Shown: positions 267-24,767 of the stretch, piece by piece
How positions within the stretch are numbered: position 1 is the stretch's first letter
Layout of the letters: every line of letters starts with the position of its first letter
DNA from: Microthrixaceae bacterium
Lineage (GTDB): Bacteria; Actinomycetota; Acidimicrobiia; Acidimicrobiales; Acidimicrobilacustridaceae
DNA: 46,202 nucleotides
Assembly: GCA_947446975.1 (NCBI GenBank)
Contig: CANFHM010000014.1
Span: forward strand, 1 to 46,202
Direction: 5' to 3'
The notes under the pieces: generated by a model
What the model was told of the DNA's origin: nothing
Database searches by the model: none
The model's input: the letters and a program-made list of their open reading frames with translations, nothing else
Program-made: the position numbers and the translations under genes

Positions 267-2609
267 GTGTCGACTCCCGAGGCCGAACGAGTGTCCTTCC
301 CCCGTGCACACAACCATGGCAGCACCTCCCGGCGTGGTGGTCGCGCCCGGGTGCTCCCGCTGGTGCTGGGGCTGCTCGCGGTCGTCACGCTGGCCTCGGC
401 CTGTCTGCCCGCTGATCTCACCGCCAAGCTCGTCACGCCCCCCACCAGCGGCCGGGTGCAGGGTGACGGGCCCCTGACCTCGATCTGGAACGCGGCGAAG
501 GAGAAGGCATCCTGCGGGCTCACCCCCGCCCAGCTCTCGGCCATGCTCATCGTGCCCACCTCCTTCGAATCGGGGACGAAGTCGCCTTCCCCGATGACGC
601 TCTCGCGCTGGGACAACGTCAACGTCTGGTCGCTCAACAAGAACCTGTTCCCCTTCGCCGCCACCGATGGTCCGTACACGGGCGCGTTCTACAGCCCGGG
701 CATCGGTCTGTGGCAGTTCGACTCCGCCGGTGGATGGAACCTCACCGCAGCGTCTGCCATCGACACCGACACCGCTGCCATACAGGCGGCGACCACCATC
801 TCGTATCGGTGGTGCAACGCACCCGCCGATCGGCTCGATGATCCCGTTCGCCGTCGGGCGTACGCCTGGGGCGCCTGGTACTACTGCTCCACCGATTCGC
901 GCTGTGAGGACGCCTACAGCTCGTTGCTGGTGGGGGACAAGCTCGACATCGGCTCCGACAGCGCCATCAGCAACCTCGGAGGCATGGAGAAGCGGGTGTG
1001 CAACGTGCTCGGTCTGGGCGAGGGGCTCACCTGCTACTACATCGATCCCTCACGGGCACAGGGCTCGCGCAGCTGGACCTACGGGACCTACGACCCCACC
1101 AGACCCGACTACCTCACCCCGCTCCCGAAGCCGTTCTACGACATCGAGACGGGTGGGAAGGAGTACCGGATCTGGGTGCGCGACGACACCGGATTCGACA
1201 TCGGCATCACGGCGGTCAAGCCCGTCACCTCCAACGCCCGCACCTCGGTGATGTGGAGTCGGGCATCGAACCTGTGCGATATCACGGTGCAGCGCGGCGA
1301 CTGTGCGAAGGCCCGCGTGGCCGACACCCCGTGGGGTCCGCTGACGATCGATCCGTTCGGCAGCTTCGACTCGAGCTCGGTGTCGGTGCTCAACCGGGTC
1401 ACGCTCACCGGTTGGACCATCGACCCGGACACCAACGATCCCACGCCGGTCGACATCTCCGTCGACGGTGCGGTCGTCGCTCGTGTCACCGCCGACAAGG
1501 TGCGCACCGATGTGGCCTCGGTGGTGCCGGGCTACGGCGATGCCCACGGGTTCGAGACAACCGTCGATCTCACCGGCGGCGACCATTCGGTCTGTGTCAC
1601 CGCCGTGAACATCGGCGTCTTCGGCACGGGTGATCGTTCGATGGGGTGCCGCACCGTCTCCATCGTGGGCGAACCGATCGGTGCCCTCGAATCGGTCACC
1701 GCCGCGATCGGTGGCGTGAACCTGCGCGGCTACGCCTTCGACGCGGACACGGATGCTCCGCTGCAGATCCAACTGCTCGCCGATGGTGCGCCCATCACGA
1801 CCTTCAGCGCTGATGTCGCCCGGAACGATCTCGCCGCCGACCATCCGACTTTCGGGGCGGATCATGGATTCTCGCGATTCGTGCGCCTGCGGGCCGGGGT
1901 GCGCAACGTGTGCGCGGTCGCCGTGAACGCTCCTCCCAGCGGTTCCTCGAACACGACCCTCGGCTGCCAGAGCGTCACCGTCGCCGGTCAGCCGTTCGGC
2001 AGTTTCGACTCGCTCTCGACCGCTCCCGGCGGATTCCGGGTGTGGGGCTGGGCCTTCGATCCCGAGACCGCCGACGCGAAGGTCCGCATCACCGTCGACG
2101 GCACACTCGTGAAGACGGCGCTCACCGGCGTGGAACGTCCCGATGTCGGTTCCGTGTACCCGAATCTCGGCATCCGTCATGGATTCAACGCCGTGGTCCC
2201 GACCTCACCGGGCACCCATTCGGTCTGTGTCACGGTCGTGAACGAGGGTCTCGGCGGCACGGATCTGGCCCTCGGTTGTCGTTCCGTCACGGTGGTCGCC
2301 CACTCGCCGATCGGGAATCTGGAGTTCGCGAACCGGGCCTATGGCGGAGTGATCCTCGGCGGTTGGGCGCTCGACCCCGACGCCGTCGGTGCCGTGTCGC
2401 TCGCCGTGTCGGTGAACGGCGCCGCCCCGAAGATGTTCCGTGCCGCCGACCCGCGCCCCGATGTCGGTGCGGTCTATCCGGGGTACGGCGACAACCACGG
2501 GTTCCTCGTGTATGTGGCCATCCCTGCCGCGCCGACCACTGTGTGCGTGCAGCTGCTCAATCTCGGTGCGCCGATGCCCAACAGCACATTGTCGTGTCGG
2601 ACCTACTGA
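267..2609 (+). CDS. secreted or lipid-anchored protein with four C-terminal Cys-containing repeats
   Basis: A 780-residue exported protein. An Arg-rich N-region is followed by a hydrophobic stretch (about 29-45) ending LASAC at Cys46, a lipobox-like site (signal peptidase I cleavage is an alternative). Residues ~70-280 look like a lysozyme/transglycosylase-like domain: a hydrophobic helix then Glu101 in an F-E-S-G context, and GIGLWQ at 145-150. This is only a shape resemblance. Four tandem repeats of about 105 residues follow (about 361-467, 468-574, 575-678, 679-780). Each has a G-W/Y-x-DPD-like strand, a D-V/R-x-D-V-x-x-x-x-P-x-x-G-x-x-HGF core and two Cys about 19 apart, probably a disulfide. 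The same module occurs twice in the muramidase at 6565. The start is uncertain: GTG 267 is used and GTG 291 is the alternative, neither with a good ribosome site. Function unproven; a cell-wall or surface role is inferred. Confidence 0.75.
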   Translation: MSTPEAERVSFPRAHNHGSTSRRGGRARVLPLVLGLLAVVTLASACLPADLTAKLVTPPTSGRVQGDGPLTSIWNAAKEKASCGLTPAQLSAMLIVPTSFESGTKSPSPMTLSRWDNVNVWSLNKNLFPFAATDGPYTGAFYSPGIGLWQFDSAGGWNLTAASAIDTDTAAIQAATTISYRWCNAPADRLDDPVRRRAYAWGAWYYCSTDSRCEDAYSSLLVGDKLDIGSDSAISNLGGMEKRVCNVLGLGEGLTCYYIDPSRAQGSRSWTYGTYDPTRPDYLTPLPKPFYDIETGGKEYRIWVRDDTGFDIGITAVKPVTSNARTSVMWSRASNLCDITVQRGDCAKARVADTPWGPLTIDPFGSFDSSSVSVLNRVTLTGWTIDPDTNDPTPVDISVDGAVVARVTADKVRTDVASVVPGYGDAHGFETTVDLTGGDHSVCVTAVNIGVFGTGDRSMGCRTVSIVGEPIGALESVTAAIGGVNLRGYAFDADTDAPLQIQLLADGAPITTFSADVARNDLAADHPTFGADHGFSRFVRLRAGVRNVCAVAVNAPPSGSSNTTLGCQSVTVAGQPFGSFDSLSTAPGGFRVWGWAFDPETADAKVRITVDGTLVKTALTGVERPDVGSVYPNLGIRHGFNAVVPTSPGTHSVCVTVVNEGLGGTDLALGCRSVTVVAHSPIGNLEFANRAYGGVILGGWALDPDAVGAVSLAVSVNGAAPKMFRAADPRPDVGAVYPGYGDNHGFLVYVAIPAAPTTVCVQLLNLGAPMPNSTLSCRTY

Positions 2610-2614
2610 GTTCG

Positions 2615-2635
2615 CGCCCGATCCCCTCGGGGGCG
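2615..2635. terminator. weak hairpin between the secreted-protein gene and rmlA
   Basis: A 5-bp stem (2615-2619 with 2631-2635) around an 11-nt loop lies just after the stop at 2609. It may be a weak terminator. Confidence 0.3.
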
Positions 2636-2664
2636 TGGCATCGACCGACTGCTAGAAAGTCCGC

Positions 2665-3759
2665 ATGAAGGGTCTCATCCTCTCCGGTGGCGCCGGCACC
2701 CGCCTGCGCCCGATCACCCACACCAGCGCCAAGCAGTTGGTGCCGGTGGCCAACAAGCCGATCCTCTTCTACGGGATCGAGGACATGGTCGAGGCGGGGA
2801 TCACCGAGATCGGGATCATCACCGGCGACACCGGCGCCGAGATCCGCGACGCCGTCGGCGACGGTTCCCGCTGGGGCGCCCACGTCACGTACATCCCCCA
2901 GGACGCTCCACTCGGTCTGGCCCATTGCGTGCTCATCGCCCGGGAGTTCCTCGGTGAGGATGACTTCGTGATGTATCTGGGCGACAACCTGCTGCGTCAG
3001 GGCATCGCCGAGTTCGTGGAACGGTTCGAGGCCGATCGCCGTCTCGCCGACGGCGCCGATGCCACCGCCCCGTCGGCCCAGATCCTGCTGGCGCGGGTAC
3101 CCGATCCGCAGCGATTCGGTGTGGCCGAGATCGGTCCCGACGGCGAGGTGCTCCGCCTCGTGGAGAAGCCGGTCGATCCTCCCTCCGACCTGGCACTCGT
3201 CGGTGTGTACCTGTTCGACCGGAGCATCCATGAGGCCGTGTCGACCATCGAACCCTCGCCCCGAGGGGAGCTCGAGATCACCGACGCCATCCAGTGGCTG
3301 ATCGACCACGACCACCGTGTGCGTCATGAGGTCCTCGACGGCTGGTGGAAGGACACCGGGAAGCTGCAGCCCCTGCTCGAGGGGAACCGACTCGTCCTCG
3401 AGGCGATCGAACCGGCGATCCATGGCTCGGTCGACGCCGACTCGCTGATCGATGGTCGCGTCGTGATCGAGGAGGGCGCCGTCATCATCAACTCGACCGT
3501 GCGCGGTCCCGCCATCATCGGCGAGCGCACCCGCGTCGTGAACAGCTACATCGGACCCTTCACGTCCATCTACTTCGACTGCGAGATCACGAACACCGAG
3601 ATCGAGCATTCGGTGGTGCTCGAGGAGTCCATCGTGCGCGATGTCACCCGGATCGCGGATTCGCTGATCGGCAAGAAGGTCGAGGTCCGTCGCTCGGAGA
3701 CCCGTCCGCATGCCACGCGGCTCATGGTCGGTGACCACTCCGTCGTCGACCTCGCATGA
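2665..3759 (+). CDS. rmlA: glucose-1-phosphate thymidylyltransferase, long form
   Basis: A 364-residue nucleotidyltransferase. The family forms dTDP-glucose from dTTP and glucose-1-phosphate, the first step to dTDP-L-rhamnose. The N-terminal domain has the SGGAGTRLRP signature (7-16) with Lys23 nearby, a GDN metal-binding turn near 107 and VEKP at about 166-169. The last ~110 residues form imperfect hexad repeats typical of a left-handed beta-helix. That extra domain places it with the long RmlA/StrD group rather than the ~290-residue enteric form. ATG 2665 is preceded 6 nt upstream by TAGAAA, an imperfect -10, and has no clear Shine-Dalgarno sequence, so it may be leaderless. It overlaps the next gene by 4 nt. 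The other rml genes lie at 9734-12141. A long-form enzyme could feed another dTDP-sugar pathway, but rmlB, rmlC and rmlD nearby favour rhamnose. Confidence 0.88.
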   Translation: MKGLILSGGAGTRLRPITHTSAKQLVPVANKPILFYGIEDMVEAGITEIGIITGDTGAEIRDAVGDGSRWGAHVTYIPQDAPLGLAHCVLIAREFLGEDDFVMYLGDNLLRQGIAEFVERFEADRRLADGADATAPSAQILLARVPDPQRFGVAEIGPDGEVLRLVEKPVDPPSDLALVGVYLFDRSIHEAVSTIEPSPRGELEITDAIQWLIDHDHRVRHEVLDGWWKDTGKLQPLLEGNRLVLEAIEPAIHGSVDADSLIDGRVVIEEGAVIINSTVRGPAIIGERTRVVNSYIGPFTSIYFDCEITNTEIEHSVVLEESIVRDVTRIADSLIGKKVEVRRSETRPHATRLMVGDHSVVDLA

Positions 3760-5087
3760 ACCGACTTCGCTCGGCGGCGTGTGTCGTCGCGCTCATGGCG
3801 CTCGCCCTCGCACTCGTGATCGGACATGTGCACAGCTACACCGAGGTCTCGCCGGTCGACGAGCTCCAGCACCTCGACTACCTGATCCGTGCCGGTGACG
3901 GGCACCTCGTCGGGCTCGGTGACCTGTTCTCACAGCGCTCTCTCCGACTCGAGACCTGTCATCGGCTCGATGCCGAGTTCGATGCCAAGGTCCCGGCCTG
4001 TGTCACCGATCCTTCGATCGAGCTCGACCCGACGACCTTCCAGGAGAGCGGATTCAACACCGCAGCGATCCATCCGCCCACCTATTACGTGGTCGATGGC
4101 GTGGTCGCCCGTGTGATCGCATCGGTGCTGCCGGTGAAGGACGATCCCCTCACCAACGGTCGGGTGGCCGGTGCGGTGTGGTTGATGGCTGCGGTGGGGG
4201 CACTGTGGTTGCTGCTGCGGGAGCTCGGGGCGAACCGACTCCTCTCATCGGCGCTCATCGCCATCACCATCTCGGCTCCGACGGTGCTGTTCGCCGCCGC
4301 CACCATCAACACCGATGGCACCTCGCTTCTGTGCGGCGCCCTGTTGGTCTGGGCGGTCATCCGATGGGAGCGGGGTCGGCTCCCGATGTGGGTCGTGCTC
4401 GCGGCTGCGGCCCTGTGCGCCGGCACCAAGGTCACCAACCTGATCGCGGTCGCGGTCGTCGTGCTCTACCTGCTCATCAGGTGCAACTGGTCAGCATGGC
4501 GTTCGGCCCGCCCGGAGCGGGAGTTCGTGCGGGTGAACCGTCGTCGGCTGCTGCCGGTGGTCTGGATCAGTGCCACGGCGGTGCTGGTGTCGGGGATCTG
4601 GCAGGTGGTGGCGACTTCCATCGCCATGGTCGCCGGGGCCGATATCCCCATGACCCAGCGCTACACGGTCACACAGTTCCCGATGAGCCAGTTCATCGGC
4701 TCATGGCGCCAGACCTTCGACCCGCTGTTCGGGCCGTATCTCCCGCCCTTCCTGCGCACCGACGCCGTGACTCTCATCTCCGGCCTGATCGCCCTGCTGC
4801 TCATCGTGTTCACCATCGTGGCGATGGTGCGGTCGCCCCGGGGCTCGCGGGATCGGGCACTCGCGTGTGCAGCACTCGCCGCCGCTGCAGTCGCCGGACC
4901 GGCGATCGTGCTGTTCAACTACGGCTTCCAGTCCGTCTATGTCGACATCCCGTTCCGATACGCCCTCGTGGCCGTCCCTGCCCTCATGGCCGCCGCAGCC
5001 GCGGTGCTGCGGGGTCGCTGGGCGACCCTGCTCACGACCGGCCTCGCAGTGGCGAGCGTGGCCAGCGTCGGTATCGCGTTCAGGTGA
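3756..5087 (+). CDS. polytopic membrane protein, GT-C glycosyltransferase-like
   Basis: A 443-residue integral membrane protein with about 10-11 hydrophobic segments, the first at residues ~7-25. A large first extracytoplasmic loop (about 26-130) starts with S-P-V-D-E-L-Q-H. An acidic pair in this position is typical of GT-C enzymes that use polyprenyl-phosphate sugars and of the DUF2142-like family. The loop has two Cys (in ETCH and PACVTD) that could form a disulfide. ATG 3756 overlaps the rmlA stop (ATGA), so the genes are translationally coupled. The position between rmlA and a flippase gene suggests a role in building or modifying a lipid-linked glycan outside the membrane. Substrate unknown. 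The GT-C assignment rests on topology and the DE motif only. Confidence 0.6.
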   Translation: MNRLRSAACVVALMALALALVIGHVHSYTEVSPVDELQHLDYLIRAGDGHLVGLGDLFSQRSLRLETCHRLDAEFDAKVPACVTDPSIELDPTTFQESGFNTAAIHPPTYYVVDGVVARVIASVLPVKDDPLTNGRVAGAVWLMAAVGALWLLLRELGANRLLSSALIAITISAPTVLFAAATINTDGTSLLCGALLVWAVIRWERGRLPMWVVLAAAALCAGTKVTNLIAVAVVVLYLLIRCNWSAWRSARPEREFVRVNRRRLLPVVWISATAVLVSGIWQVVATSIAMVAGADIPMTQRYTVTQFPMSQFIGSWRQTFDPLFGPYLPPFLRTDAVTLISGLIALLLIVFTIVAMVRSPRGSRDRALACAALAAAAVAGPAIVLFNYGFQSVYVDIPFRYALVAVPALMAAAAAVLRGRWATLLTTGLAVASVASVGIAFR

Positions 5088-5153
5088 ACACCGGTGGACC
5101 ACAATGGTCCGTCGAACACGAGGTGCGCCGGCACCGACAGGAGTACCCCCACG

Positions 5154-6479
5154 ATGCCTGATCCGATCCGCAGACTCCGTCACCTCGGTGAGGCCATCCC
5201 GACCGGCACGGTCTCGGTGGGCGTCGGTCTGGTCATCTCCTCGATCACGGCCTATGCGTTCGTGGTGGTGGCGCTGAACGCGCTCGACGGCTCCGCCAAG
5301 GCGGCGTTCTCGGCGTTCTGGGCCGTGGTGTTCGTGATCGGCCCGGGCTTCTTCCTGCCCCTCGAGCAGGAGGTCGCGCGAGCGCTCGCCCATCGTGAGG
5401 CGCAGGGGGAGGGAGGCCGACCCCTCGTCGTTCGGGCCGTGCGCATGGGTGCGATCCTCACCACCGTGCTCGTGGTGGCGGTGCTCGTGGCCACTCCGTG
5501 GCTGTCCACCGAGATCTACCACGGCGACAACCTCTTCGCCCTGAGCCTGTCGCTGTCACTCGTGTCGTTCTGCATGCTGCACCTCACCCGCGGCGTGCTG
5601 GCCGGTGAGGGGCGGTTCCGTTCCTACGGCGAGCTGATCGCCATCGACAGTTCGGTCCGCGTGATGCTCGCCATCGGGTTGGCGTTCGCCGGCGTGCACA
5701 GCGCCGGTCTCTACGCCCTCTGTCTCGGACTCTCCCCGCTCATCGCCCTGCCGATCGTGCTGCTGCGGGGCCGTCCCGACCTCCGCCCCGGACCTGACGC
5801 CCCGATCTCGGAGCTGTCGGCGAATCTCGGCTGGCTGCTCGCCGCCTCGGTCCTGGTGCAGCTCGTCTCCTACGCCCCGCTGCTGGGCGTGAACCTCCTC
5901 TCCACCGAGGCCGACCGCGACATCGTCACCGGTTTCGCATCGGCGTTCTTCGTGGCCCGTGTCCCGATCCTCGCATTCCAGGCGGTGCAGGGGACCCTGC
6001 TTCCGAAACTGGCCGGCCTGGCCGGTGCCGGGCAGCACGACGAGTTCCGCCGGGGGTTCAACCGCCTCATGGTGGTCGTGATCGGCATCGCTGTGCTCGG
6101 CACGCTCGGCGCCTATGTGGCCGGACCCTTCGTGGGCGGGATCCTGTTCAAGGACTTCACGATGTCGGCCTCCTCCCTGGCGCTGCTCGCCGCGGGCAGC
6201 GGGGTGTTCATCGTCGCCCTCACCATGGCGCAGGCACTCGTGGCGCTCGGCGATCATCGCATCACGGCCATCGCGTGGGCGTTCGGTCTCGTCGCCTCAC
6301 TGATCGTCATGGCGACGATCAGCGGGCTCGAACTGCGGGTCGATCTCGGATTCCTCGTCGGCTCGGCGGTGTCGGCACTCGTGATGGGGATCGCCCTGAT
6401 GGCCGAGCAGAAGAAGATGGCGACCACCAGCATCTCGGCGCTGGTCGACGCCATCGAGCACGAACCCATCGAACTCTGA
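5154..6479 (+). CDS. Wzx-like polysaccharide flippase (MOP superfamily)
   Basis: A 441-residue membrane protein with about 12 hydrophobic helices, two of them in the first 80 residues, and the spacing of the MOP/polysaccharide-transporter superfamily, whose members flip lipid-linked oligosaccharides across the cytoplasmic membrane. ATG 5154 is chosen because ACAGGAG (5137-5143) lies 10 nt upstream. The frame extends in-phase to 5094, but that stretch reads as low-complexity polar sequence. The gap from the GT-C-like gene is 66 nt, so the two are probably co-transcribed. An ABC exporter for glycan is also encoded (16464-18535), so this flippase may carry a different lipid-linked product. The C-terminal tail is soluble and acidic. 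Confidence 0.72.
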   Translation: MPDPIRRLRHLGEAIPTGTVSVGVGLVISSITAYAFVVVALNALDGSAKAAFSAFWAVVFVIGPGFFLPLEQEVARALAHREAQGEGGRPLVVRAVRMGAILTTVLVVAVLVATPWLSTEIYHGDNLFALSLSLSLVSFCMLHLTRGVLAGEGRFRSYGELIAIDSSVRVMLAIGLAFAGVHSAGLYALCLGLSPLIALPIVLLRGRPDLRPGPDAPISELSANLGWLLAASVLVQLVSYAPLLGVNLLSTEADRDIVTGFASAFFVARVPILAFQAVQGTLLPKLAGLAGAGQHDEFRRGFNRLMVVVIGIAVLGTLGAYVAGPFVGGILFKDFTMSASSLALLAAGSGVFIVALTMAQALVALGDHRITAIAWAFGLVASLIVMATISGLELRVDLGFLVGSAVSALVMGIALMAEQKKMATTSISALVDAIEHEPIEL

Positions 6480-6550
6480 TCGACCTCCACAACTGATCCC
6501 GCCGCCCCGGCGACGCATCGGCCCGACCCATCCCTGTGGCGCTTCGCCGG

Positions 6551-6556
6551 TACCGT
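6551..6556 (+). promoter_or_regulatory. -10 box (TACCGT) for the GH25 gene, leaderless
   Basis: TACCGT ends 8 nt before ATG 6565, so transcription should begin at or next to the start codon. There is no Shine-Dalgarno sequence. Confidence 0.55.
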
Positions 6557-6564
6557 GGTGGCCC

Positions 6565-7938
6565 ATGCGCAGGTCAGCGTCGGTCCTCATCGCCGCCCTC
6601 CTGCTTCTGGTCGTCGCCGCAACCCCGGCGGGTGCGCTCCTCACCGGCGTCGATGTGGCCAGCTACCAGCATCCCGGTGGCGCGCCGATCGACTGGGTGA
6701 AGGTGCGGGCGGCCGGGCACAGCTACGCGCTGGTGAAGGCCACCGAGGGGACCACCTACACCAACCCGTACTTCGTCGACGACTGGACCGGTGCCGGCGC
6801 GGCCGGGCTCTATCGGGGCGCCTACCACTACGCCCGCCCGGCCCTGCCCTACTCCACCGCACTCGATCAGGCCCGCTACTTCGTGTCGAAGGCCGGTTCC
6901 ATGACAGGAAGGCTCGACATCGGAGCGGTGCTCGATCTCGAGGAGAAGGGGCGACTCACCAGGACCCAGCTGGCGACCTGGACCCGCACCTGGCTCGCCG
7001 AGGTCACACGACTCACCGGTCGTCCGCCGATGATCTACACCGGCTACTACTTCTGGAAGGACGCCGTCGGGAATCCGACCGATATCGGGAGCACCTATCG
7101 CCTGTGGCTGGCGAGCTACCCCGACGATCCCAACAGCACGACCTTCCGGCCACTGGTTCCCGCCGGCTGGTCGAACTGGACCTTCTGGCAGTACCGCTCC
7201 GACGGCACCGTCCCGGGGATCGGATGGCGGGTCGACATGAACCGCTTCTGCTGCGATCTCGCCGCACTCGCCGCCCTGGCCGGCGGGGGGAGCGGTGCCG
7301 GGGCCCCGTTCGGATCCCTCGACGCCGTCTCGACGAGCAGCGGCACGGTCACGCTGAGCGGCTGGGCGGTGGATCCCGACACCGTCGACCCGATCGACGT
7401 GCACGTGTACATCGACGGGCGATGGGGTGGGGCGACGAGGGCTGATGTCGAACGGCCCGATGTGGACGCCGCGCTCAGCGGCTTCTTCGGGCCCGATCAT
7501 GGGTTCCGGGTGAGCCTCCCGGTGAGCGCCGGACTGCACGAGGTCTGCGCCTACGCCATCGACTCCACCGCCGGTACCAATCCCCAGCTCGGATGCCGCA
7601 CCGTGGTCGTCCCCTCGGAGGATCCCTTCGGGAACCTGGAGGTGGCGCTTTCGGTGTACGGCTTCAACTACCTGAAGGGCTGGGCGCTCGACCCGAGCGC
7701 CGACACCCCGATCTCGGTCACGGCCTACCTCTACTCCTTCTCGCTGGGCACCTGGGCCACGGTGCCGATGACCGCTGACCTCGACCGTCCCGATGTGGGC
7801 GCGGCGTACGGCCACGGTTCGGCGCATGGCTACGTGCACCAGGCGCCGCGGCGGGGTGTCGGTGCGCAGTTCGCCTGCGTGGTGGGCACGAACATCGGCG
7901 ACGGATCGAACGCGTTCGTCGGCTGCGCCCTGTTCTGA
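6565..7938 (+). CDS. secreted GH25 muramidase with two C-terminal repeats
   Basis: A 457-residue exported lysozyme-type enzyme expected to cut the MurNAc-GlcNAc bond of peptidoglycan. Residues 1-24 form a signal peptide ending AGA. The GH25 domain (about 25-230) shows G-V-D-V-A-S-Y-Q (D30) and L-D-L-E-E (D124 and E126), the acidic residues expected of the family, then WLASY and FWQY strands and a final DMN. After a Gly-rich linker come two copies (about 247-348 and 352-457) of the Cys-containing HGF repeat also found four times in the protein at 267. The first copy keeps the full pattern. The second is divergent (HGY for HGF) but keeps both Cys. The repeats may bind wall or surface glycan; this is inferred. 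The gene converges on the glycosyltransferase at 7955 with 16 nt between stops. Confidence 0.88.
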   Translation: MRRSASVLIAALLLLVVAATPAGALLTGVDVASYQHPGGAPIDWVKVRAAGHSYALVKATEGTTYTNPYFVDDWTGAGAAGLYRGAYHYARPALPYSTALDQARYFVSKAGSMTGRLDIGAVLDLEEKGRLTRTQLATWTRTWLAEVTRLTGRPPMIYTGYYFWKDAVGNPTDIGSTYRLWLASYPDDPNSTTFRPLVPAGWSNWTFWQYRSDGTVPGIGWRVDMNRFCCDLAALAALAGGGSGAGAPFGSLDAVSTSSGTVTLSGWAVDPDTVDPIDVHVYIDGRWGGATRADVERPDVDAALSGFFGPDHGFRVSLPVSAGLHEVCAYAIDSTAGTNPQLGCRTVVVPSEDPFGNLEVALSVYGFNYLKGWALDPSADTPISVTAYLYSFSLGTWATVPMTADLDRPDVGAAYGHGSAHGYVHQAPRRGVGAQFACVVGTNIGDGSNAFVGCALF

Positions 7939-9733: not shown

Positions 9734-10300
9734 ATGGCTGAAGTGACCGAATCCGACACGATCGCCGGCGTCTTCATCGTCGATCCCACCATCCACGGCG
9801 ACGAACGCGGGATCTTCGTCGAGACGTATCGCCGCGAATGGTTCCCGCAGGGCCGCGAGATGATCCAGGGCAACCGGGGTGATCGTCAGGCGGGCGCCGT
9901 CGTCGGGCTCCATTACCACCTGCATCAGGCCGATTACTGGTACGTCCCCTACGGCACGGCCCGCGTGGTCCTGCATGACCTCCGGGTCGGTTCGCCCACC
10001 GATGGGGCCACCCAGTCCTTCGACCTCGGCCTCCAGCCCGATGGCACCCATTCGCATCGCGGCATCTTCATCCCGCCGGGTGTGGCCCATGGTTTCGGGG
10101 CGCTCACCGACATGACCATCACCTATCTCGTCGACGGGTACTACAACGCCACCGACGAATGCGGCGTGGCCTGGGACGACCCCGAGATCGCCGCCGACTG
10201 GGGGATCACCGACCCCATCCTGTCCGAGCGGGACCGCACCAATCCTCGTCGGGCCGACATCGAGGCGCAGTGGCGTCCCCATCGCGGGCTGCGGTCATGA
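9734..10300 (+). CDS. rmlC: dTDP-4-dehydrorhamnose 3,5-epimerase
   Basis: A 188-residue cupin-type epimerase that converts dTDP-4-keto-6-deoxyglucose to dTDP-4-keto-L-rhamnose. It shows the D-E-R-G-I-F-V-E-T strand, G-L-H-Y-H with the expected catalytic base at His60, the F-I-P-P-G-V-A-H-G-F beta-barrel signature and Tyr135/Tyr136 in D-G-Y-Y-N at the position of the catalytic Tyr. Length matches the family (about 180-200). The canonical RGLHFQ motif is replaced by VGLHYH, so this is a somewhat divergent member. It starts the rmlC-rmlB-rmlD run, with 34 nt before rmlB. Confidence 0.87.
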   Translation: MAEVTESDTIAGVFIVDPTIHGDERGIFVETYRREWFPQGREMIQGNRGDRQAGAVVGLHYHLHQADYWYVPYGTARVVLHDLRVGSPTDGATQSFDLGLQPDGTHSHRGIFIPPGVAHGFGALTDMTITYLVDGYYNATDECGVAWDDPEIAADWGITDPILSERDRTNPRRADIEAQWRPHRGLRS

Positions 10301-10334: not shown

Positions 10335-11288
10335 ATGAAGCTCTTCATCACCGGCGCCGCCGGATTCATCGGATCGAACTACGTGCGTCACGTCCTCGAC
10401 ACCACCGACGACGAGGTCACGGTGTTCGACGCCCTCACCTATGCGGGCAACCTGTCGAGCCTCGCCGATGTCGCCGGGAACCCCCGCTACCGCTTCGTGC
10501 AGGGCGACATCTGCGACCGGGCCGCGGTCACCGCGGCGATGGACGGCCACGATGCGGTGGTGCATTTCGCCGCCGAGAGCCATGTCGATCGTTCCATCGT
10601 CGACCCCGACACCTTCGTGCGCACCAACTGTCTCGGCACCAACGTGATGTGCGATGTCGCCCGCACCGTCGGTGTCGATCGATTCCTGCACATCTCCACC
10701 GACGAGGTGTACGGCTCGATCGAGGAGGGTTCGTTCGTCGAGACCGATCGCCTCGGTCCGCGTTCTCCGTACTCCTCCTCGAAGGCTGGCTCCGATCTCA
10801 TCGCTCTGTCCTATGAGGAGACCTACGGGCTGCCGGTCATCGTCACACGATCGTCGAACAACTTCGGGCCCTACCAGTTCCCCGAGAAGGTCATCCCGCT
10901 GTTCGTCACAAACCTGCTCGATGGTCGGAAGGTCCCGCTCTACGGCGACGGACTCAACATCCGCGACTGGATCTACGTGCTCGACAACTGCGCCGGTGTC
11001 GATCTCGTCCTGCGTCGGGGAGCGGTGGGGGAGATCTACAACATCGGCGGCGGCAACGAGACCACCAACCGCGACCTCACCGACCGTGTGCTCGCCCTGC
11101 TCGGCTGCGGCGAGGAGATGATCGAGTACGTCGAGGACCGTCTGGGGCATGATCGCCGCTACTCGATCGACTGCTCGAAGGCGGCGGCGCTGGGATGGAC
11201 CCCCCAGCGTTCCCTCGACGAAGCCCTCGCCGAGACCGTCGAGTGGTACCGCGCCAATCGGGCGTGGTGGGAACCCTTGAAGGGCTGA
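10335..11288 (+). CDS. rmlB: dTDP-glucose 4,6-dehydratase
   Basis: A 317-residue extended short-chain dehydrogenase/reductase that turns dTDP-glucose into dTDP-4-keto-6-deoxyglucose. It has the NAD-binding TGAAGFIG (6-13), VVHFAAESHVDRS, STDEVYG with the family's catalytic acids after the Thr, the catalytic Y-S-S-S-K (Y146, K150) and SNNFGPYQFPEK, a highly specific RmlB signature. It is slightly shorter than typical (about 330-355). It lies 4 nt before rmlD and is clearly in the same operon as rmlC and rmlD. Confidence 0.94.
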   Translation: MKLFITGAAGFIGSNYVRHVLDTTDDEVTVFDALTYAGNLSSLADVAGNPRYRFVQGDICDRAAVTAAMDGHDAVVHFAAESHVDRSIVDPDTFVRTNCLGTNVMCDVARTVGVDRFLHISTDEVYGSIEEGSFVETDRLGPRSPYSSSKAGSDLIALSYEETYGLPVIVTRSSNNFGPYQFPEKVIPLFVTNLLDGRKVPLYGDGLNIRDWIYVLDNCAGVDLVLRRGAVGEIYNIGGGNETTNRDLTDRVLALLGCGEEMIEYVEDRLGHDRRYSIDCSKAAALGWTPQRSLDEALAETVEWYRANRAWWEPLKG

Positions 11289-11292
11289 TCAC

Positions 11293-12141
11293 ATGCGCGT
11301 CCTGATCACCGGCGCCGGCGGTCAGGTCGGCCGCGAACTCGTCGAGCGATTCCTCGCCCACGGCCGCCATGAGGTGCTGGGCCTCGCCCATGCCGATCTC
11401 GACATCGGTGATCGCGACGCCGTGCTCGGGGTCATCACCGGCACCGCACCGGATCTCATCATCAACCCCGCAGCCTGGACCGCCGTCGACGCCTGCGAAT
11501 CGGATCCGGATCAGGCGTTCCGCAGCAACGCACTGGCTGTCCGTCATCTGGCGGAGGGTGCCCGTCGGGTCGGTGCCCATGTCGTGCACATCTCCACCGA
11601 CTACGTCTTCGATGGCACGAAGGCGGAGCCCTACCACGAGTGGGACACCCCTGCTCCTCGTTCGGTCTACGGCGCATCCAAGCTCGCCGGTGAGCGCGAG
11701 CTCGACCCCGATGCCACGATCCTGCGGACCTCATGGGTCTGTGGCTTCCACGGCGGCAACATGGTCAGGACGATCCTCCGCCTCGCCGGGGAACATGAGA
11801 TCCTCAGCTTCGTCGACGATCAGCGTGGTCATCCGACCTTCGCCGATGATCTCGCCATGATGATCGAACGGCTCGCCGTGGAACGACGTCCCGGCCTGTT
11901 CCATGTCACGAACCAGGGAGCAGTCAGCTGGTTCGAGTTCGCCGGGGAGGTGCTGCGCTGCGCCGGGCTCGATCCCGAGCGGGTCCGGCCGGTGTCCACC
12001 GCCGAACTGCTCCCGGCGCGGCCGGCGCCGCGGCCGGCGAACTCGGTCCTCGACAACGCCGCCCTGCGTCTCTCGGGGATCGAACTCCTCGACGATTTCC
12101 GGGTGCCGCTCCAGCGGCTCGTCACGAGGCTCATGTCGTGA
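11293..12141 (+). CDS. rmlD: dTDP-4-dehydrorhamnose reductase
   Basis: A 282-residue reductase for the last step to dTDP-L-rhamnose, using NAD(P)H. Visible are the Rossmann TGAGGQVG (6-13), INPAAWTAVDACE (close to the family's NxAAYTxVDxAE), ISTDYVFDG, and the catalytic Y-G-A-S-K (Y126, K130). The C-terminal RPANSVLDN matches the substrate-binding RPxxSxLxx motif. Length is normal. The stop overlaps the GTG of the following glycosyltransferase (GTGA), which ties rhamnose supply to its probable user. Confidence 0.94.
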   Translation: MRVLITGAGGQVGRELVERFLAHGRHEVLGLAHADLDIGDRDAVLGVITGTAPDLIINPAAWTAVDACESDPDQAFRSNALAVRHLAEGARRVGAHVVHISTDYVFDGTKAEPYHEWDTPAPRSVYGASKLAGERELDPDATILRTSWVCGFHGGNMVRTILRLAGEHEILSFVDDQRGHPTFADDLAMMIERLAVERRPGLFHVTNQGAVSWFEFAGEVLRCAGLDPERVRPVSTAELLPARPAPRPANSVLDNAALRLSGIELLDDFRVPLQRLVTRLMS

Positions 12142-16463: not shown

Positions 16464-17273
16464 GTGACAGCCGCAATCGAGATCTGGACATATCGGAACC
16501 TCATCTACAACCTCGCGCAGCGTGAGCTGCGGGCCCGGTACAAGAAGAGCGTCCTCGGGTGGGCGTGGTCGCTCATCAACCCGGCGTCCACGCTGCTCAT
16601 CTTCAGCCTCGTGTTCGGGGTGTTCCTGAAGCAGATCCCGCCGGCCTTCGGCAACGGCGACACCGGCGTGTTCGCCCTCTACCTGTTCGCCGGTCTCGTG
16701 GTCTGGAACTTCTTCAACGCCACGATCAACGGGTCCATCACGGCGCTGCAGAACTCGGGCCAGCTGCTCAACAAGGTCTACTTCCCGGCATCGTGTCCGG
16801 CCATCGCCAACCTCATGACGGTGATCCTGCAGGGGGTCATCGAGGGGGGCATCCTCGCCGTCGTCATGGTGGTGCTCGGCAACGTCTCCGTCACGTTCCT
16901 GCTCTTCCCGTTCACGCTCCTGCTGCTGGCCCCGTTCGCCCTGGGGATCGGTCTGGCGGTGTCGATCTTCAACGTGTACCTGCGCGATGTCGGCTACCTG
17001 GTCTCCATCGGCATGAATCTGCTCTTCTACGCCACGCCGATCGTCTACCCGGTGACCTCCATCCCCGAGGAGAAGTGGGGTCTGCCGCTGCGGACGATCT
17101 TCTCGCTCAACCCGGTGGCTCAGTTCGTGGGCTGGTCCCGTGACGCCTTCTATCTGCTGCGCTGGCCGAGCCCGGCCAACGTGGCGGTCATGCTGGCGGT
17201 CTCCGTGGGCACGTTCCTCCTCGGCTGGAGCATCTTCTCCTGGCGCTCCAAGAACGTCACCGAGGAACTCTGA
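16464..17273 (+). CDS. wzm: ABC-2 type polysaccharide export permease
   Basis: A 269-residue membrane protein with about six hydrophobic helices and the ABC2_membrane pattern: an amphipathic N-terminus with RELRARYKKSVLGWAWSLINP, a signature of Wzm/TagG-type permeases, then hydrophobic segments at about 36-56, 66-86, 113-140, 144-171, 178-200 and 235-256. It would form the channel that exports an undecaprenyl-linked glycan with the Wzt ATPase encoded next. GTG 16464 is preceded by GAAGGGG. The stop TGA shares a base with the ATG of wzt. Related proteins export O-antigen, teichoic acid or galactan. Confidence 0.9.
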   Translation: MTAAIEIWTYRNLIYNLAQRELRARYKKSVLGWAWSLINPASTLLIFSLVFGVFLKQIPPAFGNGDTGVFALYLFAGLVVWNFFNATINGSITALQNSGQLLNKVYFPASCPAIANLMTVILQGVIEGGILAVVMVVLGNVSVTFLLFPFTLLLLAPFALGIGLAVSIFNVYLRDVGYLVSIGMNLLFYATPIVYPVTSIPEEKWGLPLRTIFSLNPVAQFVGWSRDAFYLLRWPSPANVAVMLAVSVGTFLLGWSIFSWRSKNVTEEL

Positions 17274-18535
17274 TGGCAGCCGAGAAACCGGCCATCCGGG
17301 TCGATCACGTCTCCAAGTCCTTCCGGCGCTACAAGGACCGCCCGGGTTCGCTGAAGGAGATGATCACCAAGTTCCGCATGGAGCGCTGGGAGAACTTCCT
17401 GGCCGTCGACGACGTCTCCCTGCAGGTCGAGCACGGTGAGGTCTACGGGCTGGTCGGGCACAACGGGTCGGGCAAGTCCACGCTCCTCAAGATGATGGCC
17501 AACATTCATCGCCCGACATCCGGCACCATCACCACCGACGGTCGCATCTCCGCCCTGCTCGAACTCGGCGCCGGCTTCCATCCCGATCTCACCGGTCGCG
17601 AGAACATCTACCTCAACGCCTCGATCCTCGGACTCCATCGGCGCGAGGTCGACCTCCTCCTCGACGACATCGTCGACTTCTCGGGCCTGAGCGACTTCAT
17701 CGATTCCCCGGTGCGTCACTACTCCAGCGGCATGTTCGTGCGTCTGGGCTTCGCCGTCGCCGTGCATGTCAATCCGCAGATCCTCATCGTCGACGAGATC
17801 ATCGCCGTGGGCGACGAGGAGTTCCAGCGTCGATGCTTCGAGCACCTCTACAAGCTCCGCAACAACGGCGTCACCATCGTCATGGTCACCCACAGCCTCG
17901 AGATCGTCCGCACGATGTGCGACCGTGCTGCGTGGCTCGATCACGGGAAGCTCATGGCCGAGGGTCGCTCGGTGGATGTCGTGCGCGAGTACCTCGCCCG
18001 GGTCAACGACGCCGAGTCCGAGCGTCAGTTCGAGCTGGATCGGGAGCGGGCTGCTGTCGAACAGGAGGCCCGCCTCCGGGAGAGTCCCGTCGGTGAACCG
18101 GCCGAACGTCTCGTGGCCCTCGGCGAGATCGAACTCATCGATCACAACGGTCGTGAGACCCGCTACCTCGAGACCCATCGCAGCGCCACCATCCGGGTGA
18201 ACTTCGAGTGCCGTCGACCAGTGCGGCGCCCCAAGTTCTCCTTCTCCATCGAGACCCAGGCCGGTGTGCTCGCCTCCAACCAGGGCACCACACCCGATCA
18301 CGGCGAGCAGCCGGAGTACAGCGGGTCCGGTTCGATCGACTTCGTGATGCCCGCGGTCGTCCTCGGCCCGGGGGAGTACAGCCTGTCGGTCGCCGTGCAC
18401 GATTCGGACGGCACCATGGTCGTCGACAAGCGCGAGCGGGTCATCACCTTCCGGGTGGGCACCGATCTCCCGTTCACCGGTGTCACCGATCTCCTCGGCA
18501 CATGGTCCGATCCGCGGTTCGGCGACCCCCGATGA
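17273..18535 (+). CDS. wzt: ABC transporter ATPase for polysaccharide export, with C-terminal extension
   Basis: A 420-residue protein. The ATPase domain (about 1-245) has the Walker A G-H-N-G-S-G-K-S-T (62-70, K68), a degenerate signature HYSSGM, Walker B I-L-I-V-D-E-I-I-A-V-G-D-E and the switch His in VTHS, as in TagH/Wzt-type exporters. Residues ~270-410 form an extra beta-rich domain resembling the Wzt C-terminal glycan-binding domain, which in O9a-type systems recognises the modified non-reducing end of the glycan. Here that makes a chain-end check plausible, and the methyltransferase at 9096 could be the capping enzyme, but neither is shown. It overlaps both neighbours. Confidence 0.9.
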   Translation: MAAEKPAIRVDHVSKSFRRYKDRPGSLKEMITKFRMERWENFLAVDDVSLQVEHGEVYGLVGHNGSGKSTLLKMMANIHRPTSGTITTDGRISALLELGAGFHPDLTGRENIYLNASILGLHRREVDLLLDDIVDFSGLSDFIDSPVRHYSSGMFVRLGFAVAVHVNPQILIVDEIIAVGDEEFQRRCFEHLYKLRNNGVTIVMVTHSLEIVRTMCDRAAWLDHGKLMAEGRSVDVVREYLARVNDAESERQFELDRERAAVEQEARLRESPVGEPAERLVALGEIELIDHNGRETRYLETHRSATIRVNFECRRPVRRPKFSFSIETQAGVLASNQGTTPDHGEQPEYSGSGSIDFVMPAVVLGPGEYSLSVAVHDSDGTMVVDKRERVITFRVGTDLPFTGVTDLLGTWSDPRFGDPR

Positions 18536-21621: not shown

Positions 21622-22613
21622 TCAGCTGGTGGTTCCGGTGAACCGATCGAGGAGCTGACGGGCGGCACGGGTCGGGGTGCGGGTGCCGGTGGCCACCGCC
21701 GCCTCGGCGTCATGGAGCAGCTCGGCGACGGCGGGGTCGGCCCGGAACCGATCGAGGAGCGTGTCGCTGATCTCGCTCCAGAGCCATGCGGTGGCCTGCT
21801 GGGCACGGGCAGTGCGCAGCTCGCCGGACTGTTCGAGTGCCTCGGTGAACCGCTCCACCGCCTCCCAGATCTCGACGATGCCGGTGCTGCCGAGCGCCGA
21901 GCAGGACATCACCTCGGTGGCCCAGGCCTGCCATTTCGGTCGCAGGAGATGCACCGCGCCGGCGTAGTCGGCCCGGGTGCGCCCGGCGGCGGCGGCGAGA
22001 TCACCATCGGCCTTGTTCACGACGACGAGATCCGCCAGTTCCATGATCCCGCGCTTGATCCCCTGCAGTTCGTCGCCGCCGGCGGGGGAGACCAGCAGGG
22101 TGAACATGTCGACCATGTCGGCGACCGCCACCTCGGACTGGCCCACGCCGATGGTCTCGATGATCACGACGTCGAAACCGGCGGCCTCACACAGGAGCAT
22201 GGCCTCACGGGTGCGACGGGCGACCCCGCCGAGATGACCGCTGCCCGGTGAGGGTCGGATGAAGACCTCACTGCGATGGGAGAGGTCGGCCATACGGGTC
22301 TTGTCGCCGAGGATCGATCCGCCGGTGCGACGGCTGGAGGGATCGACGGCCAGCACCGCGAGCCGGTGCCCCTGATCGACCACATGGAGCCCGAAGGCTT
22401 CGATGAAGGTGGACTTGCCGACACCGGGAGGACCGGAGATCCCGATCCGGATGCCTGCGCCCGTGCGATCGAGGATCGCCTCGAGCACCTCGTCGGCCAT
22501 CTCGCGATGATCGGCACGCGTGGATTCGGCGAGCGTGATGGCCCGGGCCAGTGACCGACGATCACCGGCCCGGATCCCCTCGATGAGGGCTCCGGCGGTG
22601 TCGACGGTGCGGG

Positions 22614-22617
<4 letters not shown>
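21622..22617 (-). CDS. meaB: MeaB-type GTPase chaperone of methylmalonyl-CoA mutase
   Basis: A 331-residue G3E-family GTPase. It has the P-loop G-P-P-G-V-G-K-S-T (K68), L-A-V-D-P-S-S as the next switch region, [12 protein letters not shown] and V-V-N-K-A-D for guanine recognition. MeaB proteins load adenosylcobalamin into the mutase and protect it from inactivation. GTG 22617 overlaps the mutase stop (GTGA), so the two are coupled. An upstream in-frame start would run into the mutase and is rejected. The product is cytoplasmic. The ArgK name applied to relatives reflects an older misassignment. Confidence 0.9.

Positions 22618-24767
<2,150 letters not shown>

Follow-up and report, generated by a model that had tools for sequence, protein, structure and literature searches.

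An unnamed Cys-paired Ig-like repeat as a predicted wall-targeting tail of secreted actinobacterial enzymes

The window analyzed here, the whole of contig CANFHM010000014.1 (46,202 nucleotides) of a Microthrixaceae bacterium (Actinomycetota, class Acidimicrobiia), encodes two secreted proteins, one denoted here repA and the other a GH25 family muramidase, that share a repeat of about 100 residues. The repeat is most likely an unnamed Cys-paired immunoglobulin (Ig)-like wall-targeting module, with a fold that is already known and a binding function that is predicted. With moderate confidence, we propose that tandem arrays of the repeat tether secreted enzymes to a secondary wall polysaccharide or surface polysaccharide of the cell that makes them, and that the glycan linked to the rml (dTDP-rhamnose) genes of the operon is probably the ligand. 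We favor such an anchor because of the enzyme partners of the repeat, the conserved operon, the exchange of tails and the precedent of the autolysin EpaU. The structural part of the initial annotation, made from the letters of the window, is well supported, and its functional part, the binding of wall or surface glycan, is the best guess available.

Six copies of the repeat in two secreted proteins

The two proteins and their repeats are encoded as follows:

267 to 2609, + strand: repA, an N-terminal conserved domain followed by four repeats, 780 aa (open reading frame (ORF), relatives of the N-domain)
384 to 1340, + strand: repA N-domain, with lysozyme-like motifs by eye only (alignments; model with a predicted local distance difference test (pLDDT) score of 59)
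1344 to 1658, + strand: repA repeat 1 (profile match, jackknife 100.7 bits)
1668 to 1979, + strand: repA repeat 2 (profile match, jackknife 89.8 bits)
1980 to 2291, + strand: repA repeat 3 (profile match, jackknife 97.5 bits)
2295 to 2606, + strand: repA repeat 4 (profile match, jackknife 89.3 bits)
6565 to 7938, + strand: GH25 muramidase with two repeats, 457 aa (PF01183, E 8.3e-45, residues 29-219)
7297 to 7605, + strand: GH25 protein repeat 1 (profile match, jackknife 103.3 bits, model)
7615 to 7935, + strand: GH25 protein repeat 2 (profile match, jackknife 53.0 bits, model)

The ORFs, the profile matches and the jackknife agree with the initial annotation in placing six Cys-paired copies of about 100 residues, four in repA and two in the muramidase; the distance between the two genes, given there as 4 kb, is 3.96 kb. 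Twelve columns are invariant across the six aligned copies; they include the two Cys, G and D in the GW-x-x-D strand and HG in the HGF/HGY motif. Each copy, when left out and compared with the profile of the other five, scores between 53.0 and 103.3 bits, far above the best scores of shuffled copies (8.7–10.8 bits, 2000 shuffles per copy). The profile matches in the genome that contains the window (G000, 2.35 Mb in 96 contigs, 88.6% complete, the window being its entire contig C14) are these six copies, with no further one at E ≤ 0.01. The consensus of 45 copies is xPxGSLD...GxxxVxGWAxDPDTxxPIxVHVYVDG...A...RPDVGA..P.YG..HGF......G.H.VC.YAIN.G.G.N.LLGCR.V. The GH25 assignment is secure (PF01183, 153.7 bits with a cut-off of 27; PDB relatives 1jfx and 6zmv), and the matches of this protein to exodeoxyribonuclease III in NCBIfam, far below the cut-off, were taken as chance.

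The repeat is not named by any Pfam or NCBIfam model, so that the initial statement that it has no family name is right for the libraries asked. The nearest model is Big_7 (PF17957), a weak match that scores 15.4 bits (E 0.029) against the window GH25 tail, below its gathering score of 24.1, 13.5 bits against the whole GH25 protein and nothing at E ≤ 1 against repA; it matches 17 of 91 tandem pairs at E ≤ 0.1, with E 1.7e-6 for the best relative. Big_7 is likewise Ig-like and its match covers about 30 residues of a window copy, leaving out the RPDV...HGF segment and the Cys-paired end. A profile search of the PDB with the repeat gave a single chance-level match (E 0.41). The literature searched, judged by titles and the beginnings of abstracts, contains no description of the repeat, of the Cys-paired family or of its exchange with known wall-binding tails.

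Fold and the cysteine pair

The 213-residue tandem of the GH25 protein, modeled by AlphaFold from 91 alignment rows with a mean pLDDT of 96.5, comprises seven strands and a short helix in each copy, in line with the beta module that had been proposed. A Foldseek search with this model retrieves 121 PDB chains at E ≤ 0.001, and Ig or fibronectin type III (FnIII) tandems make up many of the 50 shown; the TMq values of these matches, 0.23–0.49, are low perhaps since two domains were aligned together. Judged from the model, the repeat is an Ig/FnIII-like beta sandwich, i.e., a known fold. Both Cys are placed in consecutive strands (residues 79–87 and 97–105), the last two of each copy.

In the class set, the window included, both Cys are present in 192 copies and neither in 8, none has only one and 3 are gapped; the respective numbers in the 80 further loci are 412, 6, 0 and 7. 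Pooled, 604 of 628 copies have both Cys, 14 neither, none a single one and 10 are gapped; copies from the same protein depend on one another in these counts, and some enter more than once, given that the two sets overlap and the 80 loci overlap one another and some of the class genomes. The single-Cys class copies in L108 and L111 are gapped at the other Cys column, i.e., no ungapped copy has one Cys. The spacing is 15–16 residues in 170 of the 193 copies that have both. This all-or-none co-occurrence, together with the consecutive strands of the model, supports the predicted disulfide, as initially proposed. Twenty copies come from elsewhere in the phylum: one has the Cys pair, four have neither Cys and 15 are gapped at a Cys column. 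The Cys-paired form thus belongs to a wider family.

Distribution and partner domains

The repeat is present in at least 14 of 198 genomes that sample the phylum (E ≤ 0.001) and in at least 29 of 296 genomes of the class (E ≤ 1e-6), the genome of the window counted in both; these are lower bounds, with at most 24 and 16 candidates, respectively, scored per genome. Of 165 confirmed stretches, the best 80 form a set of further loci. Among 78 loci, the carriers with a name include Cellulomonas, Microbacterium, Cryobacterium, Curtobacterium, Agrococcus, Modestobacter and Acidimicrobiia metagenome-assembled genomes (MAGs), some MAG names, e.g., Bifidobacterium breve, looking wrong. The closest named locus, L124 from a Microthrixaceae MAG, is 84% identical to the first GH25 copy. 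The same copy matches four plasmid records, two of them on proteins annotated as GH25 lysozyme and CHAP, and has no match among phage records at E ≤ 0.01.

Many carriers are predicted to act on peptidoglycan. Among the 68 class carriers, the window included (Pfam, E ≤ 0.01), GH25 and Amidase_2 were found 8 times each, Glucosaminidase 4, M23 2 and YkuD once, i.e., 23 matches to peptidoglycan-active families, counted by family so that one protein could enter twice. Other partners are beta-lactamase-like (5), DUF4185 (4), GH43 (3), S8 (3) and CAP (3) domains, with still others unnamed. The flanking pieces from the 80 further loci (105 of 106 used, one dropped; E ≤ 0.001) yield GH25 10 times, Amidase_2 10 and SpoIID 6. 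The two largest unnamed partners are the repA N-domain (a cluster of 17 sequences, to which one gene contributes two pieces) and a domain denoted here KEQ (46 sequences, some of them SpoIID-like, e.g., L154 and L185).

Exchange of tails on homologous proteins

As far as sequence comparison can indicate, the strongest support for the wall anchor, above that from gene linkage, is the replacement of the array by other tails. Outside the window's family, one relative of the repA N-domain carries three SLH domains (L221) and another FG-GAP-like repeats (L222). Inside the family, L344 combines the N-domain with two repeats followed by SLH, and in L345, L346, L347 and L348, FG-GAP_3 arrays (over the cut-off in three, below it in one) replace the repA tail beside rml genes. 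The propeller-like array of these four proteins, with its repeated NADGRLEVF...W units, is possibly a lectin; we take the unit, as a candidate only, to resemble PLL-type lectins.

The same pattern is seen in KEQ proteins, which are present in 110 of 120 genomes from a single family of the Micrococcales and for which the scan of flanking pieces yielded no Pfam family at a useful level. At least six different C-terminal arrays occur on them (loci L126–L199 and L237–L306). The repeat is carried by 27 of 70 KEQ proteins, a biased frequency, given that 30 come from the loci with the best scores, their tails truncated 1.5 kb past the domain, and the other 40 were selected further down the list. Of the 43 other tails, 42 were scanned and gave LGFP (11), CBM_4_9 (6), CWB2 (5), PG_binding_1 (2) and LysM (1), the rest being mostly unnamed.

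SLH, CWB2 and LGFP domains anchor proteins to the cell's own wall. They take the same place on homologous N-domains as the repeat, but are separate Pfam families to which the repeat gave no listed match. Given that the tails are swapped on one enzyme in one neighborhood, they most likely share one job, and the named ones bind wall or sugar. The initial claim that the repeat binds wall or surface glycan is thus supported indirectly, through the enzyme partners and the swaps with known wall-binding modules; direct binding of a glycan by the tail we infer, and this glycan may contain rhamnose.

The rml operon

Between and beyond the two repeat-bearing genes, the window encodes a dTDP-rhamnose cluster in which rmlA, rmlB and rmlD score over their cut-offs and rmlC below:

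2665 to 3759, + strand: rmlA, glucose-1-phosphate thymidylyltransferase (TIGR01208, 466 bits, cut-off 320)
3756 to 5087, + strand: 443-aa ORF, unnamed, a membrane protein by eye (no NCBIfam match at E ≤ 1e-5)
5094 to 6479, + strand: 461-aa ORF, labeled flippase in the initial annotation (no match at E ≤ 1e-5 in NCBIfam, the sole library asked)
9734 to 10300, + strand: rmlC (TIGR01221, 107 bits, below the cut-off of 156)
10335 to 11288, + strand: rmlB (TIGR01181, 437 bits, over the cut-off)
11293 to 12141, + strand: rmlD (TIGR01214, 280 bits, over the cut-off)
16464 to 18535, + strand: polysaccharide-export ATP-binding cassette (ABC) pair of the Wzm/Wzt or TagGH type (sub-cut-off matches to NF050109 and NF010066)

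The order repA–rmlA–GH25–rmlC–rmlB–rmlD, in a listing that consists of genes recognized by similarity to those of the window, recurs in the window's family, where the repA N-domain is present in 29 of 37 genomes. Among 27 family genomes (G000, G102, G134, G264, G326, G401, G441 and 20 further ones), rmlA is the next recognized gene after repA in 24, one of them (L340) with repA broken into several frames, and GH25 with repeats follows downstream in 19, in one case split over two contigs (both counts by eye). In the window and its closest relatives, two extra genes separate rmlA from GH25; the 443-aa ORF follows rmlA also in L329, L330, L331 and L333, and homologs of the 461-aa ORF are found nearby in some relatives. 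Within the class, rml genes are adjacent to 7 of 7 repA and 7 of 8 GH25 repeat-bearing proteins, and a cluster of glucosaminidases by inference from other families of the class (L038, L091, L094 and L096) also lies beside rml genes.

In the Micrococcales, 32 named genomes were examined; TIGR01181 matches a single rmlB in 31 genomes and two in the remaining genome. These genomes are part of the 78 loci found by means of the repeat, were picked by name after the neighbor list had been seen, and contain mostly KEQ proteins. The nearest repeat protein, among the matches listed, lies within 5 kb of rmlB in 9 genomes, 10 kb in 14, 20 kb in 27, 25 kb in 28 and 40 kb in 29; in the remaining three, the two are on separate contigs. 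The NlpC/P60 control gave 0 of 66 places on the contig of rmlB (24 of the 32 genomes, by eye), a comparison weakened by short contigs. The proteins thus belong to the rml neighborhood (28 of 32 within 25 kb vs. 0 of 66).

Comparison with known systems and a proposed role

GW domains are SH3-like, whereas the repeat described here is Ig-like with a Cys pair. The two are alike as non-catalytic repeats that hold, or are predicted to hold, an autolysin on a wall glycopolymer: the GW domains of the Listeria autolysin LygA bind galactosylated wall teichoic acid, with an affinity tied to GW number (PMC10335673). A closer parallel in gene context is EpaU of Enterococcus faecalis, a GH25 autolysin encoded inside the enterococcal polysaccharide antigen (EPA) rhamnan cluster, with a C-terminal wall-binding domain that varies between strains and associates with teichoic-like EPA decorations (PMC13343894). 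Both EpaU and the window muramidase thus combine GH25 with a C-terminal binding part inside a rhamnose-polysaccharide cluster; the likeness is one of architecture, and binding was found by experiment in EpaU (PMC13343894), whereas here it is predicted.

We propose that the repeat is an Ig-like domain with its last two strands joined by a disulfide, and that tandem arrays would serve as a non-catalytic wall-targeting tail for secreted, often peptidoglycan-active enzymes, anchoring them on the cell's own secondary wall or surface polysaccharide. In the window, this polymer would probably be the glycan made and exported by the products of the neighboring rml, glycosyltransferase and ABC-export genes, and the action of the muramidase would thereby be confined to places that display it.

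Evidence against the wall anchor and alternative roles of the array

Several observations weigh against an anchor on rml-linked glycan. First, 45 of the 53 other class carriers are without an rml gene in the stretch fetched; of the 8 that have one, two are contig-end fragments of one genome. Second, the distance to rmlB is at most 25 kb for 15 of 27 KEQ proteins with the repeat and for 26 of 43 with other tails (one protein per genome, the best-scoring or a picked copy; rmlB at E ≤ 1e-100). Of the former, 18 are within 40 kb, 4 farther and 5 on other contigs; of the latter, 29 are within 40 kb, 3 farther, 7 on other contigs and 4 in genomes without rmlB. The rml linkage in Micrococcales follows the KEQ enzyme, whatever its tail. 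Rhamnose specificity, for which the contrast of 28/32 with 0/66 had seemed decisive, was accordingly rejected as a deduction from linkage: repeat tails on KEQ are no closer to rml genes than other tails, which does not fit a module specific for rhamnose glycan. The initially noted proximity of glycan genes therefore holds for the window's family, whereas the Micrococcales link belongs to the enzyme. Third, the repA N-domains of L345–L348 stay beside rml genes without the repeat. Fourth, the EpaU ligand consists of teichoic-like decorations and not of the rhamnan itself (PMC13343894). Fifth, among 97 repeats from 13 family pairs, the nearest neighbor comes from the same protein type in 82 cases and from the other type in 15; concerted evolution of the repA and GH25 arrays, which this predominance of same-type neighbors contradicts, was not seen in these pairs. 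Partners other than wall hydrolases and carriers without rml genes indicate that the ligand need not be an rml product.

A further point is that Ig-like folds are often plain spacers. The arrays might be inert stalks without a ligand that set the distance from membrane or wall to the catalytic domain, and the Ig/FnIII-like fold as well as the spacer-like variation in copy number, from 1 to 9 per protein, are compatible with this role. A spacer is, however, expected between two functional parts, whereas in class carriers the array usually ends the protein, and relatives bear wall- or sugar-binding modules (SLH, CWB2, LGFP, LysM and CBM_4_9) in its place; we consider a stalk unlikely, although it is the most serious of the alternatives. 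Binding of environmental or prey glycans, by which the hydrolases would be aimed at other cells or at polysaccharide food, is rather improbable: GH43, GH18, polysaccharide deacetylase and proteases among the partners and the sugar-binding CBM_4_9 among the swapped tails would fit it, but in the window's family two carriers are encoded inside the cell's own rml cluster, and SLH, CWB2 and LGFP are own-wall anchors. That the repeat is a sorting tag, recognized for secretion or surface attachment without binding a ligand, is very improbable, its frequent C-terminal position on many unrelated passengers notwithstanding, given that arrays of up to nine copies occur and that some are internal or N-terminal (e.g., L041, L105, L108, L111, L114, L115 and L122).

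The wall anchor could have a broader form, which we put forward tentatively and regard as rather unlikely, namely a module for self-recognition of secondary wall glycans across Actinomycetota. In such a scenario, unrelated rml-tied wall enzymes (GH25, repA N-domain, glucosaminidase and KEQ proteins) would each have acquired the repeat, and swaps with SLH, CWB2, LGFP or propeller tails would occur as the wall polymer changes, tail and polymer co-varying as in EpaU. If the wall anchor is correct, it adds an unnamed family to the wall-binding modules SLH, CWB2, LGFP, GW and LysM and predicts a role for more than 100 secreted actinobacterial proteins. KEQ would then rank among the common wall-associated proteins, with a link to rmlB that does not depend on its tail, and its tail type can be compared with wall sugar composition; such a comparison makes a general question testable, whether wall enzymes switch anchors when the wall glycan changes.

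The repA N-domain and other genes

The initial description of repA as a second enzyme-like protein holds in part: its N-domain is conserved, with 79 invariant columns over 10 sequences, among them several Cys, two Glu and the GxGxWQFDSAG motif, and it is a putative enzyme, but neither Pfam nor the PDB offers a relative, and homology to SLT lysozymes is not supported. The Pfam search gave three chance-level matches (E 0.13–0.25), none of them a lysozyme, the profile search of the PDB no relative, and Foldseek, with a poor model (pLDDT 59), no match at E ≤ 0.001. Both repA-N and KEQ were first taken as lysozyme-like from motifs, which profile comparison did not support: hhalign of the repA N-domain with five SLT (GH23-type) domains gave a probability of 0.1, and that of KEQ with SLT 0.5, the KEQ Glu aligning, not significantly, beside the SLT Glu. 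Homology between the repA N-domain and KEQ was likewise rejected (probability 18 over 20 columns). Most repA relatives have a Cys after a hydrophobic stretch (e.g., LASAC; positions 384–450 in the window), but the strict lipobox pattern fits only 1 of 14, which makes repA no more than a possible lipoprotein.

In L340 and L196 (G746, contig C4), repA and GH25 are found in several overlapping repeat-bearing frames, as if frameshifted. After the glycan cluster, the other strand of the window (21622 to 24767, − strand) encodes, by eye, a methylmalonyl-CoA mutase-like protein and a MeaB-like partner.

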